Shown here: positions 9,638-17,144 of the stretch, in pieces
Position numbering within the stretch: position 1 is the stretch's first letter
How the letters are laid out: each line of letters begins with the position of its first letter
Source of the DNA: Alphaproteobacteria bacterium
GTDB lineage: Bacteria > Pseudomonadota > Alphaproteobacteria > Rs-D84
DNA length: 41,886 bases
Assembly: GCA_016927395.1 (NCBI GenBank)
Contig: JAFGMU010000013.1
Span: 1 to 41,886 of the forward strand
Reading direction: 5' to 3'
Translations under genes and position numbers: made by a program
Notes under the pieces: model-generated
Databases searched by the model: none
The model's input: only the letters and a program-made list of their open reading frames with translations
Told to the model about the DNA's origin: nothing

Positions 9638-9640
9638 AAA

Positions 9641-9935
9641 AGCTCAGATGGGCGATAAGCCGGATTCTGTACCATTTCTGGTGGACATAATTAATCTAAA
9701 CTTTACATTACTGCAAAGCTGAAGCCTTCTACCCGCCCCCAAACTGGGACTGTTAAAGGGGGCCTATTTGAAGTTGCACCGCATAGAGATTGCCCGTTTC
9801 AACCGGACTTAACCGGCTCGTCTCTGTTGCTCTGATCGTCGGGTCGCCCCGCGCGGCCGTTAGCCGCTATGCTGTCCCACGGTGTCCGGACTTTCCTCTG
9901 GCCTTGCGGTCAGCTATGTCCTGCCCATCTGAGTT
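9641..9935 (-). ncRNA. rnpB: RNase P RNA component, bacterial type A-like
   Basis: Reverse complement contains GAGGAAAGTCCGGAC near the 5' end, ACAGAATCCGGCTTATCG near the 3' end, and paired P1 ends CAGATGGGC/GCCCATCTG. Confidence 0.95.
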
Positions 9936-10045: not shown

Positions 10046-12763
10046 ATGCAAAGTTTTGCAAGATTTTTTACGTTTTTATTTATAGTACTTTTTTCCGGTT
10101 CTGCTTTTGCTTCTGTGACTTGCGACCCTGGGACGTATTTGTCTGCAAATCAATCGGAATGCTCGACCTGTACTGCGGGAAATTATTGTTTGGGTGGTAC
10201 TTTTGAAACCAGTGCATCAGACCAGGGTTTAACAGTTTGCCCAACTGGTTATGACGATGGTGGTACTGGTTTAACTGCACAAAACGAATGTAAATTTCAA
10301 ACCACACCTGGTTATTGGATAGGTACAGTTAATTCATCTACAGAAATAATTTGCTCATCTAAATATTATTGTCCATCTACACTTGTAAATTATGGAAGTA
10401 ATGGTTCAAGAATTTATTGTCCAACAAATTATGATGATGGTGGTACTGGATTATCCGCAATAGAACAATGTAAATTTTTAACATATTCTGGATATTATAT
10501 TTTAAATGCAAATGATACGGCACAAACAGTTTGTCCGTCTGGTTATTATTGTCCATCGGTTTATGTTTCATATGGTCAGACTGGGGATAAAATTCAATGC
10601 CCAGAAGGTTATCGTGCTGGCAGTACGGGATACAGTTCCGAAAATATGTGTAGATTACAAACAACAGCTGGTTATTATATTGATACAGCATATTCAACAA
10701 CCCAGGTAATATGTCCGGTTGGTTATTATTGTGCAGCGGCGCTTGTTCAATATGGATCTTTGGGCAGTATATCAGCATGTCCCACAGGTTATATTGACGG
10801 TAGTACAGGCGCAAAAACAAGAAATGATTGTCAGATACTAACGACCGCTGGGGTTAACTATTCAAATTTGAACCAAACGGTTTGTCCGGCTGGCTGGTAT
10901 TGTCCTGTAATGTTGTTAAATTATGGAAATTCATCTTCATTGGGTTGTTTGGGACAAACTTATTCTGAAGCTGGTGCGTCCGAATGCACACCATGTCCAA
11001 CAAACTATGATGATAATGGAGCTAATTATAAAACAAGTGTAACAGCTTGCCGATTAAGAACAACAAATGGTACATATGTTGCAAACGCTTATGATACAAC
11101 AACTACACCATGTCCACCTGGATATGTATGTCCATACGGATATATAAATTATGGCAGTACAGGAAATATTGAACAGTGTACTGGTGCCACATATTTACCT
11201 GGTGGTGCTACAACAGCAAGTTGTTACCCATGTCCATCACCATATACATATGATACAACTGATGGAAAAAGTTCAATAAGTCAATGTGTTGCACAAACAA
11301 ATGATGGTACGTATATCAAAACATCAGGTGGCGCATTAACAACTTGTCCAGCAGGAAGCTTCTGTCCATCCGTGCTTGTTAATCATGGTAGTTTAGGAAG
11401 TATAACACAATGTACTGGAACAACATATTCCGAAGCTGGTGCTGCGTCATGTACCGATTGTCCAAGCGGTTATAATTATGATACATCTGATGGAAAAACA
11501 TCTGTTTCAAAATGTATTTTGAATTGTCCAGTTGGAACCAGAATTTTAAGCTCTGATATTGGTACATCAAATTGTTCATCCCCCAGTGGTAATTGGTTTA
11601 ATTCATCAACAGCTTTGGTTCCATATGGTTCAGTATCATTGGTAAGCTATTGTGCCAATGGTTTCACGTCTTCTGGTAATACACCAAGCGATCACGATGC
11701 ATTGAGCGATTGTAAGATGTCTTTACCTGGTGGAACTTATTTGCCGGCAACAACAGTTCAAGCAAATTATATAAAAATTACAGGTAATGGAAATACGACA
11801 GATAGTGATAATAAAGTTGTTGAACTTCAAGCATTTACATCAACTGATGGAACAGGAACTAATTATTTGGCATATTCATCAGTTGTGACAGGTACAAATG
11901 CAACTTATGCTATTAATGGAAGTTGGTTAAAATCATATTATTCATCATGTGAAACGGGTACTGGTTGTGTTTGGAATCTGGGTTCTGTTAAAACAATAGG
12001 ATCGTTCAAAATTGCAATGCATACAGATGGCAGCACATATCATGATGTTTCTATTTATACATCATTGGATGGTGTTGCTTGGACCCAAGTTATTGGACCA
12101 ATAGAAATAACAACACAAAATATTGAACCAGCAGTTGGTGAATTTGTTTTGATTTCTGCACCATTTGAATCATGTACATCTGGAACATTCAGTACAGAAC
12201 AAATTATTTCCCAAGGTACAACAACAACTTGTACGGACTGTATTACTGGTTCATACAGTGATGTTGGTGCGGATTCATGTATTGCATGTCAGGATGGAAC
12301 AACAACCAGTGCGGATGGTCAATCTTCTTGTGATACACTTTGTCCAAATAATACTGGTGATCCAACTACTACATGGGATGTTGCAACATGGATAAATAAT
12401 ACTGTTAATAATATTTGTACAACAATTGGCTGTGGTGGTGGATATTATATGGATGGTTTAGAATGTAGTCCTGTTGGTATCGGGTATTGGTCTGCAAATG
12501 GTTCTAATTCCAGAACTGCATGTGATACAGGATTGACGACAATTGGTTATGGTTTGGGTGCCGATGAATCTGGTGATTGTGGGCGTATATTGCACTTTGG
12601 AAATGATAAAATATATTTACGTAGTGATAAAGTAACGACACCATCATTAAATATAAATATCAGTGGCAAGACATTTTATGGAAATATGACAACGGACACC
12701 AAGGGTTCTTTGCGTATAACTTCTGGTGGTACTAAATATTCTGTTTATGACGATAGTATGTAA
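10046..12763 (+). CDS. Secreted cysteine-rich modular repeat protein (GCC2/GCC3 or EGF-like style)
   Basis: 905 aa; signal peptide MQSFARFFTFLFIVLFSGSAFAS; about six modules of CPxGYYCPxxLVNYGSxGxIxxC; beta-rich insert; C-terminal domain ending YSVYDDSM shared with the next ORF. Confidence 0.9.
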   Translation: MQSFARFFTFLFIVLFSGSAFASVTCDPGTYLSANQSECSTCTAGNYCLGGTFETSASDQGLTVCPTGYDDGGTGLTAQNECKFQTTPGYWIGTVNSSTEIICSSKYYCPSTLVNYGSNGSRIYCPTNYDDGGTGLSAIEQCKFLTYSGYYILNANDTAQTVCPSGYYCPSVYVSYGQTGDKIQCPEGYRAGSTGYSSENMCRLQTTAGYYIDTAYSTTQVICPVGYYCAAALVQYGSLGSISACPTGYIDGSTGAKTRNDCQILTTAGVNYSNLNQTVCPAGWYCPVMLLNYGNSSSLGCLGQTYSEAGASECTPCPTNYDDNGANYKTSVTACRLRTTNGTYVANAYDTTTTPCPPGYVCPYGYINYGSTGNIEQCTGATYLPGGATTASCYPCPSPYTYDTTDGKSSISQCVAQTNDGTYIKTSGGALTTCPAGSFCPSVLVNHGSLGSITQCTGTTYSEAGAASCTDCPSGYNYDTSDGKTSVSKCILNCPVGTRILSSDIGTSNCSSPSGNWFNSSTALVPYGSVSLVSYCANGFTSSGNTPSDHDALSDCKMSLPGGTYLPATTVQANYIKITGNGNTTDSDNKVVELQAFTSTDGTGTNYLAYSSVVTGTNATYAINGSWLKSYYSSCETGTGCVWNLGSVKTIGSFKIAMHTDGSTYHDVSIYTSLDGVAWTQVIGPIEITTQNIEPAVGEFVLISAPFESCTSGTFSTEQIISQGTTTTCTDCITGSYSDVGADSCIACQDGTTTSADGQSSCDTLCPNNTGDPTTTWDVATWINNTVNNICTTIGCGGGYYMDGLECSPVGIGYWSANGSNSRTACDTGLTTIGYGLGADESGDCGRILHFGNDKIYLRSDKVTTPSLNINISGKTFYGNMTTDTKGSLRITSGGTKYSVYDDSM
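11763..12160 (+). other. Possible discoidin/F5-8 type C-like domain within the Cys-rich protein
   Basis: YIKITGNGNTTDSDNKVVELQAF...WNLGSVKTIGSFKIAMHTDGSTYHDVSIYTSLDGVAWTQV resembles the galactose-binding-fold pattern (W-LG----I..., SxDGxxWTxV). Confidence 0.5.
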
Positions 12764-12779
12764 TTATTGAAATTACAAA

Positions 12780-14144
12780 ATGAAAAAAAAAATTATATTT
12801 TTTATTTTTTTGTTTGCGATTGTTTTTGCGAACAATGCCTTTTCAGCCCCAAGCAAAGTTACTTGTAATCCCGGAACTTATTGGGATGGATCTAACTGTG
12901 TTACATGTTTGGCACAATATTATTGCACAGGCTTTGTTAACAAAAACAAACCTTCTGCTGGGTATGGACTTACATTATGCCCAACAGGTTATATAAACGG
13001 AGGCACAGGTTTATCTTCACAAAGCCAATGTCAACTACAAACAAATGATGGTTATTATATAGCAACGGCATATTCAACAACTCAAACAATATGTACATCT
13101 GGTTATTATTGTCCTGCATCATTGATAAATTATGGTAGTACTGGTACAAGAACAGCCTGTCCAAGTGGATATACTTCTGGTGGTACAGGATTAGCTCTGC
13201 AATCTGATTGTAAATTACAGACAACAAATGGCAATTATATAGCGACTGCATACTCTACAACTCAAACAACGTGTACCGCAGGATATTATTGTCCAGCATC
13301 TCTTATTGGTTATGGCAGTACAGGAACCATAATACAATGCACAGGCGCGACTTATTCTGCAGCTGGTGCATCCAGCTGTACTAATTGTCCAGCCTCTTAT
13401 ACTGCTAATATAAGTGCCGCAAAAACAAGTGTTTCACAGTGTCAAATTCAAACAACCGATGGTAATTATATAGCTACTGCATATTCTACAACTCAAACAA
13501 CTTGTACTGCAGGATATTATTGCCCTGCTTCATTGGTAAATTATGGTAATACCGGTGAAATAATACAATGTTCTGCTGGAACATATTCAGGGGCCAGTGC
13601 TTCCAGCTGTATCAGTTGCGCGATTGGTTCATATAATACAACTAATGGTGCTACATCATGTATTGCATGTCAAAATGGGACAACAACCAACAGCATTGGT
13701 CAATCAATTTGCAACACAGATTGTTCAAATAATAATAATTATGATACTTCATGGGTTGCTGCCAATTGGAATGCTGGAAATACAGTTACAAATTTATGTA
13801 CGATAAATGGTTGCGCTGGGGGGTATTATCTTGCAACGGATACATGTGTGGATGTTGGATTAAATTATTGGTCAGCTGATGGATCTGTTACACGTACATT
13901 ATGCGATACGGGATTAACAACAATTGGTTTTGGCCCTGGGGCTGACGAACCTTCGGATTGTGGTCATGTTATGAATGTTGGTGGAACTCAATTACATTTA
14001 CGCAGTGAAAAGAAAACATCTCCTTCTTTGTATCTGCAGATAAATGGTTCAACGTATTATGGAAATATGACAACGGATATCAAGGGTTCTATGCGTGCAA
14101 ACTATAATGGAATTAACTATTCAATATATGATGATAGTATGTAA
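12780..14144 (+). CDS. Secreted cysteine-rich modular repeat protein, shorter paralogue
   Basis: 454 aa; signal peptide MKKKIIFFIFLFAIVFANNAFSA; three close CTxGYYCPASLxxYGxTG modules; C-terminus RSEKKTSPSLYLQINGSTYYGNMTTDIKGSMR...YSIYDDSM matches the upstream protein. Confidence 0.9.
   Translation: MKKKIIFFIFLFAIVFANNAFSAPSKVTCNPGTYWDGSNCVTCLAQYYCTGFVNKNKPSAGYGLTLCPTGYINGGTGLSSQSQCQLQTNDGYYIATAYSTTQTICTSGYYCPASLINYGSTGTRTACPSGYTSGGTGLALQSDCKLQTTNGNYIATAYSTTQTTCTAGYYCPASLIGYGSTGTIIQCTGATYSAAGASSCTNCPASYTANISAAKTSVSQCQIQTTDGNYIATAYSTTQTTCTAGYYCPASLVNYGNTGEIIQCSAGTYSGASASSCISCAIGSYNTTNGATSCIACQNGTTTNSIGQSICNTDCSNNNNYDTSWVAANWNAGNTVTNLCTINGCAGGYYLATDTCVDVGLNYWSADGSVTRTLCDTGLTTIGFGPGADEPSDCGHVMNVGGTQLHLRSEKKTSPSLYLQINGSTYYGNMTTDIKGSMRANYNGINYSIYDDSM
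13039..13565 (+). repeat. Three imperfect in-frame repeats at nucleotide level
   Basis: Copies around 13039, 13219 and 13450 of ...AATTATATAGC(A/G/T)AC(G/T)GCATA(T/C)TC(A/T)ACAACTCAAACAA...TGTAC...GG(A/T)TATTATTG(T/C)CC; anchor spacing 180 and 231 nt, both multiples of 3. Confidence 0.8.
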
Positions 14145-14160
14145 ACATATCTTCTTGTGA

Positions 14161-14379
14161 TTATTTTTTATTAATACCCTGCTTTTTTGCAGCATTCAGT
14201 GCCTTGACCAAAGATTGTTCTGCAATTTGTCTGATTTTTTGTGAAAATGTACGCATATTCATAGCGTCAGCAACCAAATCACCAAAAATTTGAGCAATAT
14301 ATTCAATTTGTGTTGGCGAAACTATGAAAACATCGCTGGAAATATCAGAAGTATTAAGTTTTTTAACATTTTCTCTCAT
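14161..14379 (-). CDS. Small hypothetical protein
   Basis: 72 aa ORF in the gap between convergent/divergent neighbours; helical, Lys-rich C-terminus; no family recognised. Confidence 0.55.
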   Translation of the reverse strand: MRENVKKLNTSDISSDVFIVSPTQIEYIAQIFGDLVADAMNMRTFSQKIRQIAEQSLVKALNAAKKQGINKK

Positions 14380-14534: not shown

Positions 14535-17144
14535 ATGTTAAAAAGTGTTCTTAAAAAAATTCTTGGTTCAGCCAATGATAGAATTGTAAAATCTTATGAT
14601 AAAACAGTGTCCCTGATAAATGATTTAGAGCCTAAATATCACGCAATGACAGATGATGAACTGCGTGCCCAGACAGAATTGTTTAAAAAACGCCTAGAAT
14701 CAGGTGAAAAAGAAAAAGATATTTTACCAGATGCATTTGCAGCCGTCCGTGAAGCTTCTATTCGTTCGGTTGGAATGCGTGATTTTGATGTTCAGTTAAT
14801 TGGCGGTATGGTTCTAAGTAATGGTCATATTGCTGAAATGAAAACCGGTGAAGGTAAAACACTGGTTGCGACATTGGCTTTGTATTTGAAAGCCTTGCAT
14901 GGCAAGGGGGCTCATCTGATTACTGTGAATGATTATTTGGCATCACGTGACGCTGAATGGATGGGAAAAATATATAATTTTCTGGGATTAACAGTTGGTA
15001 TAATTCAACATGATATGTCTGACGAAGAACGTCGTGATGCATATGCTTGTGATATTACATATGTTACAAATTCCGAACTGGGGTTTGATTATCTGCGCGA
15101 TAATATGAAATTTACAAAAGATCAACAGGTTCTGCGTAGTTTGTTCTATGCGATTGTTGACGAAGTCGACAGTATTTTAATTGACGAGGCACGTACTCCG
15201 TTAATTATTTCTGGTCCGTCTGAAGATACCAGCGAATTATACGCCAAAGTTGACGAAGTCGTTATTAAACTGTCCACCGATGATTATAAAAAAGATGAAA
15301 AAGATCGCCATGTTACATTGACTGACAAAGGTGTTGATGTTGCCACAGGATTGTTAAAAGAAAACGGATTATTGGTTGGTGAAAATTTATATGCACCTGA
15401 AAATGCGGCTTTGGTTATGCATATTCAACAATCTTTGTTGGCACATCATTTATATAATAAGAATGTGAATTACGTTGTTCGTAATGGTGAAATATTAATT
15501 GTTGATGAATTCACGGGCCGTGTTATGACGGGTCGTCGTTTTGGTAAGGGATTGCACCAAGCAATCGAAGCAAAAGAACACGTTCAGGTTCAGCCAGAAA
15601 ATCAAACAGTTTCCAGTATTTCGTACCAGAATTTGTTCCGTTTATATCCTATGTTATCTGGTATGACCGGAACTGCGATGACCGAAGCAGCAGAATTCGA
15701 AGAAATTTATAATTTGCGTGTTGTTTCAATTCCAACAAATCGCCCTGTTTCCAGAATTGATCATCATGATGAAATTTATCGTAACAAGGACGAAAAATAT
15801 TACGCAATCGTAAAACAAATAAAAGAATGTTTGGATCGTAAACAACCGGTACTGGTCGGAACAGTTTCAATCGAAAAATCCGAAGAATTAGCAAAACTAG
15901 TTCGCAAAGAATTGAACATTGAACCAGCTGTTTTGAATGCAAAACATCATGAATCCGAAGCGCATATTGTTGCCCAGGCTGGTGCACCAGGTGCGGTTAC
16001 AATTGCAACAAATATGGCGGGTCGTGGTACTGATATTAAACTGGGTGGTAATGCCGAAGATTTAATTTCAAGATTGGATGAAACAGCACCAGATTATGAA
16101 GATAAAAAGAAAGAAATTTATGACCAAATAGAAAAGAATAAAAAATTGGTTTTAGATGCAGGTGGTTTGTATGTTATTGGTACCGAACGTCATGAATCTC
16201 GCCGTATTGATAATCAGCTGCGTGGTCGTTCTGGTCGTCAGGGTGATCCAGGTGATTCAAAGTTCTTTTTAGCATTGGACGATGATTTGATGCGTATTTT
16301 TGGCGCAGCACGTTTAGATGGGATGTTGACTACTTTGGGATTAAAAAATGGCGAAGCAATAACACACCCATGGATTACCAAGGCTTTGGAAAAAGCGCAA
16401 AAACGTGTAGAAGCAAGATATTTCGAATCACGTAAAGAATTATTAAAGTACGATGACGTTATGAATGAACAACGTAATGTTGTTTATAAACAACGCGATG
16501 ATTTGATGACTTCCAAAGATCTGAATTCTTTGGTTGATGAATTAATTGCCGATGTTGTAGAAATGATTTGTGAAAAAAATATTCCAGAAAAATCACACCC
16601 TATTGATTGGAATCTGGACGGTATCCATGATACGATGATGCAAACATTTGCACTGGATATAACAGACATCGAATTGTGGAAAAAAGACGAAAGCATCAAC
16701 GAACAAAAAGCGTATGAAACTTTGCTGACTTTGGCCAAGAATCGTTATGACTATCAGAAAAATCGTTACAGCGAAGAAATGATGCAAACGGCGCAACGCC
16801 AAATGATGTTGGGTGCACTGGATTCTGTATGGAAACGTCATTTACAACAAATGGACTATCTGCAGACTGGTATCGGATTGCGTGGTTATGCCCAGAAAAA
16901 TCCATTGTACGAATATAAAAGAGAAGCGCTGGAATTATTCCGTAATACAATTAATAACTTCAAGATAATGTCGGTTTCTTATGTTTGTAGAATGGAACTG
17001 ACACGCGAAGATATAAAAGCAACAGAAGAACAACAGATAAAACACGATGCAGAATTAAATGATGCGACAACGGAACGTCGTAATGCGCCCTGTCCTTGTG
17101 GTTCTGGGTTAAAGTACAAACACTGTTGCGGTAAGTTAAAATAA
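14535..17144 (+). CDS. secA: Preprotein translocase ATPase SecA
   Basis: GEGKTLVATL, VDEVDSILIDEARTPLIISG, MAGRGTDIKLGG, C-terminal SEC-C zinc motif CPCGSGLKYKHCCG. Confidence 0.98.
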   Translation: MLKSVLKKILGSANDRIVKSYDKTVSLINDLEPKYHAMTDDELRAQTELFKKRLESGEKEKDILPDAFAAVREASIRSVGMRDFDVQLIGGMVLSNGHIAEMKTGEGKTLVATLALYLKALHGKGAHLITVNDYLASRDAEWMGKIYNFLGLTVGIIQHDMSDEERRDAYACDITYVTNSELGFDYLRDNMKFTKDQQVLRSLFYAIVDEVDSILIDEARTPLIISGPSEDTSELYAKVDEVVIKLSTDDYKKDEKDRHVTLTDKGVDVATGLLKENGLLVGENLYAPENAALVMHIQQSLLAHHLYNKNVNYVVRNGEILIVDEFTGRVMTGRRFGKGLHQAIEAKEHVQVQPENQTVSSISYQNLFRLYPMLSGMTGTAMTEAAEFEEIYNLRVVSIPTNRPVSRIDHHDEIYRNKDEKYYAIVKQIKECLDRKQPVLVGTVSIEKSEELAKLVRKELNIEPAVLNAKHHESEAHIVAQAGAPGAVTIATNMAGRGTDIKLGGNAEDLISRLDETAPDYEDKKKEIYDQIEKNKKLVLDAGGLYVIGTERHESRRIDNQLRGRSGRQGDPGDSKFFLALDDDLMRIFGAARLDGMLTTLGLKNGEAITHPWITKALEKAQKRVEARYFESRKELLKYDDVMNEQRNVVYKQRDDLMTSKDLNSLVDELIADVVEMICEKNIPEKSHPIDWNLDGIHDTMMQTFALDITDIELWKKDESINEQKAYETLLTLAKNRYDYQKNRYSEEMMQTAQRQMMLGALDSVWKRHLQQMDYLQTGIGLRGYAQKNPLYEYKREALELFRNTINNFKIMSVSYVCRMELTREDIKATEEQQIKHDAELNDATTERRNAPCPCGSGLKYKHCCGKLK

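Follow-up and report, generated by a model that had tools for sequence, protein, structure and literature searches.

Exported cysteine-rich modular proteins with a shared C-terminal domain encoded upstream of secA in one alphaproteobacterial family

Two adjacent genes for cysteine-rich modular proteins

The stretch of DNA analyzed here (the window) comprises 41,886 nucleotides from an alphaproteobacterium, and we are concerned with two adjacent genes in it, ORF A and ORF B (ORF, open reading frame), which encode cysteine-rich proteins of 905 and 454 amino acids, respectively, just as a first-pass annotation made from the sequence had described them, and which lie on the same strand with a 16-base gap. 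That annotation recognized the type of cysteine module shared by both proteins, but it took the pair for an oddity, which it is not, and overlooked the C-terminal domain, the most distinctive part of the two proteins. The features of the pair are as follows:

10046..12763, + strand: ORF A, 905-residue cysteine-rich modular protein, very probably exported, 54 Cys
10046..10111, + strand: ORF A signal peptide, 22 residues, AXA site SAFA with cleavage before S, from direct reading and a hydropathy heuristic
10121..11713, + strand: ORF A Cys-module array, six clear YYCPxxLVNYGS modules and degenerate ones
11720..12190, + strand: ORF A discoidin (F5/8 type C)/CBM32-like domain, residues 559-715, Pfam PF00754 sub-threshold, PDB profile
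12248..12361, + strand: ORF A Ephrin_rec_like (GCC2/GCC3-type) stretch, Pfam PF07699
12575..12760, + strand: ORF A C-terminal domain, 62 residues, DCGRILHFG...YSVYDDSM
12780..14144, + strand: ORF B, 454-residue cysteine-rich modular protein, very probably exported, 30 Cys
12780..12845, + strand: ORF B signal peptide, about 22 residues, from direct reading
12864..13571, + strand: ORF B Cys-module array, three clear modules
13578..13700, + strand: ORF B Ephrin_rec_like (GCC2/GCC3-type) stretch, above the Pfam cut-off
13956..14141, + strand: ORF B C-terminal domain, 62 residues

The signal peptides assigned to both proteins are classical ones, MQSFARFFTFLFIVLFSGSAFA followed by S in ORF A and MKKKIIFFIFLFAIVFANNAFS followed by A in ORF B. 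We regard it as highly probable that ORF A and ORF B are exported, modular, cysteine-rich stalk proteins. The six YYCPxxLVNYGS-type motifs reported for ORF A and the three reported for ORF B are all present, with degenerate N-terminal copies besides. The underlying unit is a 4-Cys module with the spacing 21-6-16-17, which stays in register across both proteins; the spacing triplet 21-6-16 occurs four times in ORF A and three times in ORF B, and the total of Cys-triplet repeats is nine and five, respectively. Chance repeats were rejected, since 2000 residue shuffles of each protein never gave the same triplet more than two times or a total of triplet repeats above 2, far below the recurrence observed.

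The suggested resemblance to GCC2_GCC3/ephrin-receptor-like modules was borne out by HMMER searches against Pfam, with PF07699 matching ORF B at 30.9 bits against a cut-off of 23.1. ORF A is borderline for this family, scoring 17.9 bits by hmmscan with one stretch just over the cut-off in another search, and most modules of both proteins score below it. Modules of the PF07699 type are rare in Alphaproteobacteria: matches above the cut-off were found in 8 of 240 genomes of the class, 3 of these from the same family as the window, and in none of 14 control genomes. In an alphaproteobacterium of another family (G381:C32:13950-22248), 18 Ephrin_rec_like matches are spread over two neighboring ORFs, one of 1830 amino acids.

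Structure prediction, carried out on ORF B as a whole, points to the same module type. In the AlphaFold (AF2) model, residues 80-270 have predicted local distance difference test (pLDDT) values mostly of 84-95, with an overall mean of 71. The model matches chains of MST1, ELAPOR1, Eph receptor, and TNFR type, the best Foldseek match being the Cys-rich region of the Chlamydomonas mastigoneme protein MST1 (E of 1.6e-7), with thyroglobulin, CaSR, and OX40 as further structural matches. VIA-align Z values were 7.4 for ELAPOR1, 6.4 for MST1, and 5.5 to 5.7 for EphA2, EphA4, and EphB2. All of these are below 8 and thus moderate, which suggests a shared module type and not close homology. The modules are predicted to fold as disulfide knots.

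ORF A carries an additional domain. Its residues 559-715 recur in a protein of a genus-mate (L093) and twice in a relative of 1670 amino acids (L081). When the four sequences were combined into a profile and compared with the PDB, CBM32 domains of alginate lyases were retrieved at 8.4e-9, and all four homologues match F5_F8_type_C (PF00754), the best at 1.1e-8. ORF A alone falls below the PF00754 cut-off (23.4 versus 28.2 bits), and its domain is likely a diverged relative of the F5_F8 type C/CBM32 group, not filed here as a member. The discoidin/CBM32 fold often binds sugars, and a carbohydrate-binding-like role of the ORF A domain is likely from the sequence comparison; its presence makes a binding role of ORF A more likely.

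A shared C-terminal domain in one bacterial family

ORF A and ORF B both end in a separate domain of 62 residues, in which the two proteins share 55% identity. Among the loci read out, this C-terminal domain was found in 80 proteins, always as a single copy per protein, in open frames of 105 to 6344 amino acids, some of them interrupted by contig ends; it ends no more than 15 residues before the stop codon in 74 of the 80. A crude test for signal peptides was positive in 45 of 59 5'-complete ORFs with the domain. The AF2 model, with a mean pLDDT of 88.7 and values of about 92-97 over the domain, predicts an all-beta structure. Searches of the domain against Pfam and NCBIfam returned nothing beyond chance-level matches. 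No known fold was retrieved by Foldseek, in which E never fell below 0.001 with the domain modeled within a larger model and not alone; in a second fold search, the PDB rows fell on the Cys module and not on the C-terminal domain.

The make-up of the proteins bearing this domain varies widely. Flg_new (InlB-type) repeats occur in several relatives. One open frame with the domain (L107 708-19739, - strand) spans 19 kb and 6344 amino acids, in a genome of about 1 Mb. A second Cys-rich domain of about 115-130 amino acids, with the pattern CWCR...W.F...C...CA..C..., was also seen (L081, L082, L084, L140, L179, L076, and L077); it is usually C-terminal, sometimes follows directly after the first C-terminal domain, and had no Pfam match in the two cases tested.

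We then surveyed related genomes, as the first-pass annotation had proposed, with the C-terminal domain as a single-sequence query. Of 190 genomes from the order, 148 gave a match, often with several copies each, and essentially all matches lie in the family of the window (f1), with one borderline match elsewhere. With a profile search, the domain was also recovered from many of the f1 genomes that had given no match, among them 8 of the 11 genomes of genus g10 missed by the single query, but from none of 18 genomes that belong to other families in the order. Across the class, the profile found it in 3 of 289 genomes, all from f1. A pattern scan of about 85,000 species yielded 49 loci with the domain, all labeled Alphaproteobacteria, Rickettsiales, proteobacterium, Pseudomonadota, or unnamed bacterium, and two of the species are named Candidatus Enterousia. 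No relatives were confirmed among viral contigs by the same kind of scan, which was built on an 8-row alignment, narrower than the diverse 26-row one, so that divergent outside members could escape it. In these searches, the C-terminal domain was thus found securely in a single bacterial family only.

Genus g10 corresponds to Enterousia, a member of family Rs-D84 in GTDB (PMC12306168), and f1 is probably this family. Membership in the family is not obviously tied to gut samples. Order Rs-D84, to which Candidatus Enterousia belongs, consists of uncultured gut bacteria with reduced genomes that are thought to rely on partners. Both the protein family and the terminal domain appear to be undescribed: a literature search on Enterousia/Rs-D84 retrieved no title or abstract dealing with either, and one Rs-D84 genome paper mentions only hypothetical membrane proteins (PMC12306168). 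Four features had escaped the first-pass annotation: the C-terminal domain common to both proteins, the discoidin-like domain of ORF A, the conserved locus upstream of secA, and two more paralogues.

A conserved secA locus with a variable passenger

The pair is flanked by rnpB upstream and secA downstream, as had been noted, and the surroundings include a small ORF:

9640..9932, - strand: rnpB (RNase P RNA), divergent neighbor upstream of ORF A
14161..14379, - strand: small conserved ORF of 72 residues in the gap between ORF B and secA, found by tblastn across secA-locus records
14535..17144, + strand: secA, conserved neighbor downstream of one C-terminal-domain gene

The placement between housekeeping genes had been called unusual; the flanking genes stand, and the pair proves to be one case of a family-wide multi-copy system at a conserved secA-adjacent site. 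Downstream DNA was sufficient for this comparison at 72 C-terminal-domain loci, in which some genes may be counted in two overlapping records; at 31 of these loci, the C-terminal-domain gene lies directly upstream of secA on the same strand, with a gap of 0.35 to 1.25 kb. The 72-residue ORF on the opposite strand gave tblastn matches at up to 82% identity in 43 locus records, some of which overlap; it had no Pfam family above the cut-off, is kept in nearly all secA-adjacent loci, and marks the conserved locus.

From this locus, 21 distinct 5'-complete proteins of 368 to 3303 amino acids were compared. All 21 have a hydrophobic signal at the N terminus that can be made out by eye, and their C-terminal domains have a median identity of 57% over 98% of the domain length. 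In the best alignments of the passengers, by comparison, identical residues amount to a median of 15% of the longer protein. A fixed export signal and a fixed tail around a changing middle are, we infer, what would be expected of surface proteins under diversifying pressure.

The genome of the window (779 kb, 46 contigs, about 92% complete) encodes two further paralogues, C33 and C4. C33 has at least 1250 amino acids, with the gene interrupted by a contig end, and bears InlB-type Flg_new repeats; C4 has 416 amino acids. The GC content of the ORF A/ORF B region is similar to that of neighboring genes, and there is thus no sign of a recent foreign island. Such an island was rejected on the normal GC content, the conserved secA locus, and the absence of plasmid or phage matches and of confirmed relatives in viral contigs.

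Proposed role and comparison with known systems

We consider the two proteins to be lineage-specific exported modular adhesins or fibers with the C-terminal domain as a sorting or anchoring module; this is the best reading of the data, and we hold it in even balance as a whole. That the proteins face outward as an adhesin or fiber is rather probable, and for the assignment of the C-terminal domain to sorting or anchoring the case is evenly poised. Under this proposal, the cleavable N-terminal signal peptide would route ORF A and ORF B through Sec, a step that is well supported. In the periplasm, the tandem 4-Cys modules are predicted to fold as in-line disulfide knots of the GCC2/GCC3-ephrin-receptor-like kind, giving a stiff stalk, to which some members would add a CBM32/discoidin-like domain (ORF A) or InlB-type Flg_new repeats (paralogues). 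The 62-residue all-beta domain may then take the folded protein to the outer surface or hold it there, and the stalk may act as an adhesin or surface fiber toward host tissue, protists, mucus glycans, or neighboring bacteria. Such a role would account for a passenger that diversifies next to a C-terminal domain and a locus that stay fixed. A surface or host role is something we infer, as the first-pass annotation had done. Of 15 genomes examined (that of the window, G000, and 14 related ones), which belong to fermentative, anaerobic organisms, 14 encode a DsbA-like protein of the thioredoxin fold.

Several observations weigh against this proposal. Neither DsbB nor VKOR was found in the genomes searched, and the parity of Cys counts (even versus odd, 19:19) lends no support to disulfides. 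The profile found no C-terminal domain in any tested genome of the f1 genera g4, g8, g9, and g13. In 6 of the 80 proteins, the domain is followed by other domains, in 4 of them by the second Cys-rich domain, and it is thus not a strict C-terminal signal; the Cys-rich paralogue C33, its gene interrupted by the contig end, does not carry it. No partner machinery for the C-terminal domain was found among TolC-type channels and secretins: each of the 12 genomes tested from the order has TolC-type proteins and a single TcpQ-linked secretin, whether or not it carries the domain. A tie of the domain to TolC or the secretin was therefore set aside as uninformative, and these proteins are candidates at best for the export route. 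As separate observations, the genome of the window encodes a TcpQ-like protein followed by a lipoprotein-type secretin (L180 7734-10305, G000:C17), resembling the outer-membrane unit of a type IVb pilus of the toxin-coregulated (TCP-like) kind, and in one genome (G023), a C-terminal-domain gene adjoins a secretin gene.

The alternative that survives best, though we find it doubtful, is that the C-terminal domain is a functional head at the stalk tip, serving in ligand binding or in assembly by polymerizing or capping, with the surface reached by another route or with end-to-end assembly into mastigoneme-like fibers. The domain is predicted to be well folded and all-beta, other domains can come after it, and the stalk fold is nearest to that of a filament-forming protein (MST1; PMC11015965). 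Heads for varied targets usually diversify, however, whereas in these proteins conservation is highest in the domain and it is the stalk that varies, and the domain is retained on members that differ greatly in length and make-up. It is unlikely that the proteins are periplasmic structural or storage proteins and not adhesins, such as a Cys-rich layer like the chlamydial Cys-rich envelope proteins, with the C-terminal domain binding peptidoglycan or the inner face of the outer membrane; the signal peptides show inner-membrane export only and no outer-membrane translocator is linked, but the extreme passenger variation at a fixed locus, the CBM32-like domain, and stalks of up to 6344 amino acids fit an outward role better. 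Least probable of all is gain of the modules from eukaryotes (host or protists) as mimics of host receptor or matrix modules that modulate the host, for although the modules are of a eukaryotic type, few Alphaproteobacteria have the family, and bacterial acquisition of Ephrin-type domains has been proposed (PMC6993872), a PDB sequence search returned no close eukaryotic match, the family spans Rs-D84-type genomes, including a metagenome-assembled genome whose isolate name suggests a spring and not a gut as its source and hence no single host, and convergence on simple Cys repeats is easy.

The reading as adhesins or fibers with a sorting or anchoring domain provides a concrete, family-wide set of exported stalk proteins that bears on how Rs-D84 bacteria contact their partners, in organisms of which one with a genome of about 1 Mb invests up to 19 kb in a single stalk gene. 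By way of an antibody, a probe, or a tag swap, the shared C-terminal tag gives access to their surface biology and possibly to a new export route.

Among the closest known systems, the Ephrin_rec_like/GCC2_GCC3 proteins (PF07699; thyroglobulin, ELAPOR1, and Eph receptors) are alike in Cys spacing and predicted fold. In contrast to these, ORF A and ORF B are bacterial and have no membrane helix or kinase, and most of their modules are a variant 4-Cys unit with the YYCPxxLVNYGS signature that scores below the cut-off. MST1 likewise has a signal peptide followed by a long tandem Cys-rich array, and its matching domain, with 26 disulfides, builds an extracellular filament, although its Ig-like domains and proline helix are found in neither ORF A nor ORF B (PMC11015965). 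Residues 559-715 of ORF A match CBM32 structures only via the profile, ORF A itself being sub-threshold for F5_F8 type C. The InlB B-repeats of Listeria internalins (Flg_new, PF09479) occur in several relatives and in paralogue C33 but not in ORF A or ORF B, and no LPXTG anchor was seen.

The proteins also fall outside several secretion classes. Type I (RTX-like) secreted proteins have no N-terminal signal peptide and an uncleaved C-terminal signal, whereas N-terminal signal peptides are present here. Classical autotransporters (type Va) end in a large beta-barrel of about 250-300 amino acids, compared with a C-terminal domain of 62 residues that has no Pfam match. PEP-CTERM, GlyGly-CTERM, and LPXTG signals consist of a short motif, a membrane helix, and a basic tail at the C terminus, unlike this predicted all-beta domain, which has no membrane helix and no NCBIfam match.

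A further parallel, in layout, is the type IX secretion system (T9SS) of Bacteroidota. The domain described here differs in being alphaproteobacterial and in having no match to any Pfam or NCBIfam sorting-tail model; 26 members gave no match to Por_Secre_tail/TIGR04183-type models at E≤1 in Pfam and NCBIfam, and the T9SS core genes (such as SprA and PorV) were not searched for. It is conceivable, and we offer it tentatively, that the 62-residue domain serves as the tag by which the Rs-D84 family recognizes the substrates of an undescribed pathway for export across, or attachment to, the outer membrane. Such a pathway would be functionally parallel to type IX but of separate origin and would serve a large repertoire of hypervariable Cys-rich surface stalks. 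Type IX C-terminal-domain proteins have a Sec signal peptide, a variable passenger, and a short conserved C-terminal beta domain and occur in many copies per genome, a works-like layout in which the proteins of the secA locus and their relatives are alike.

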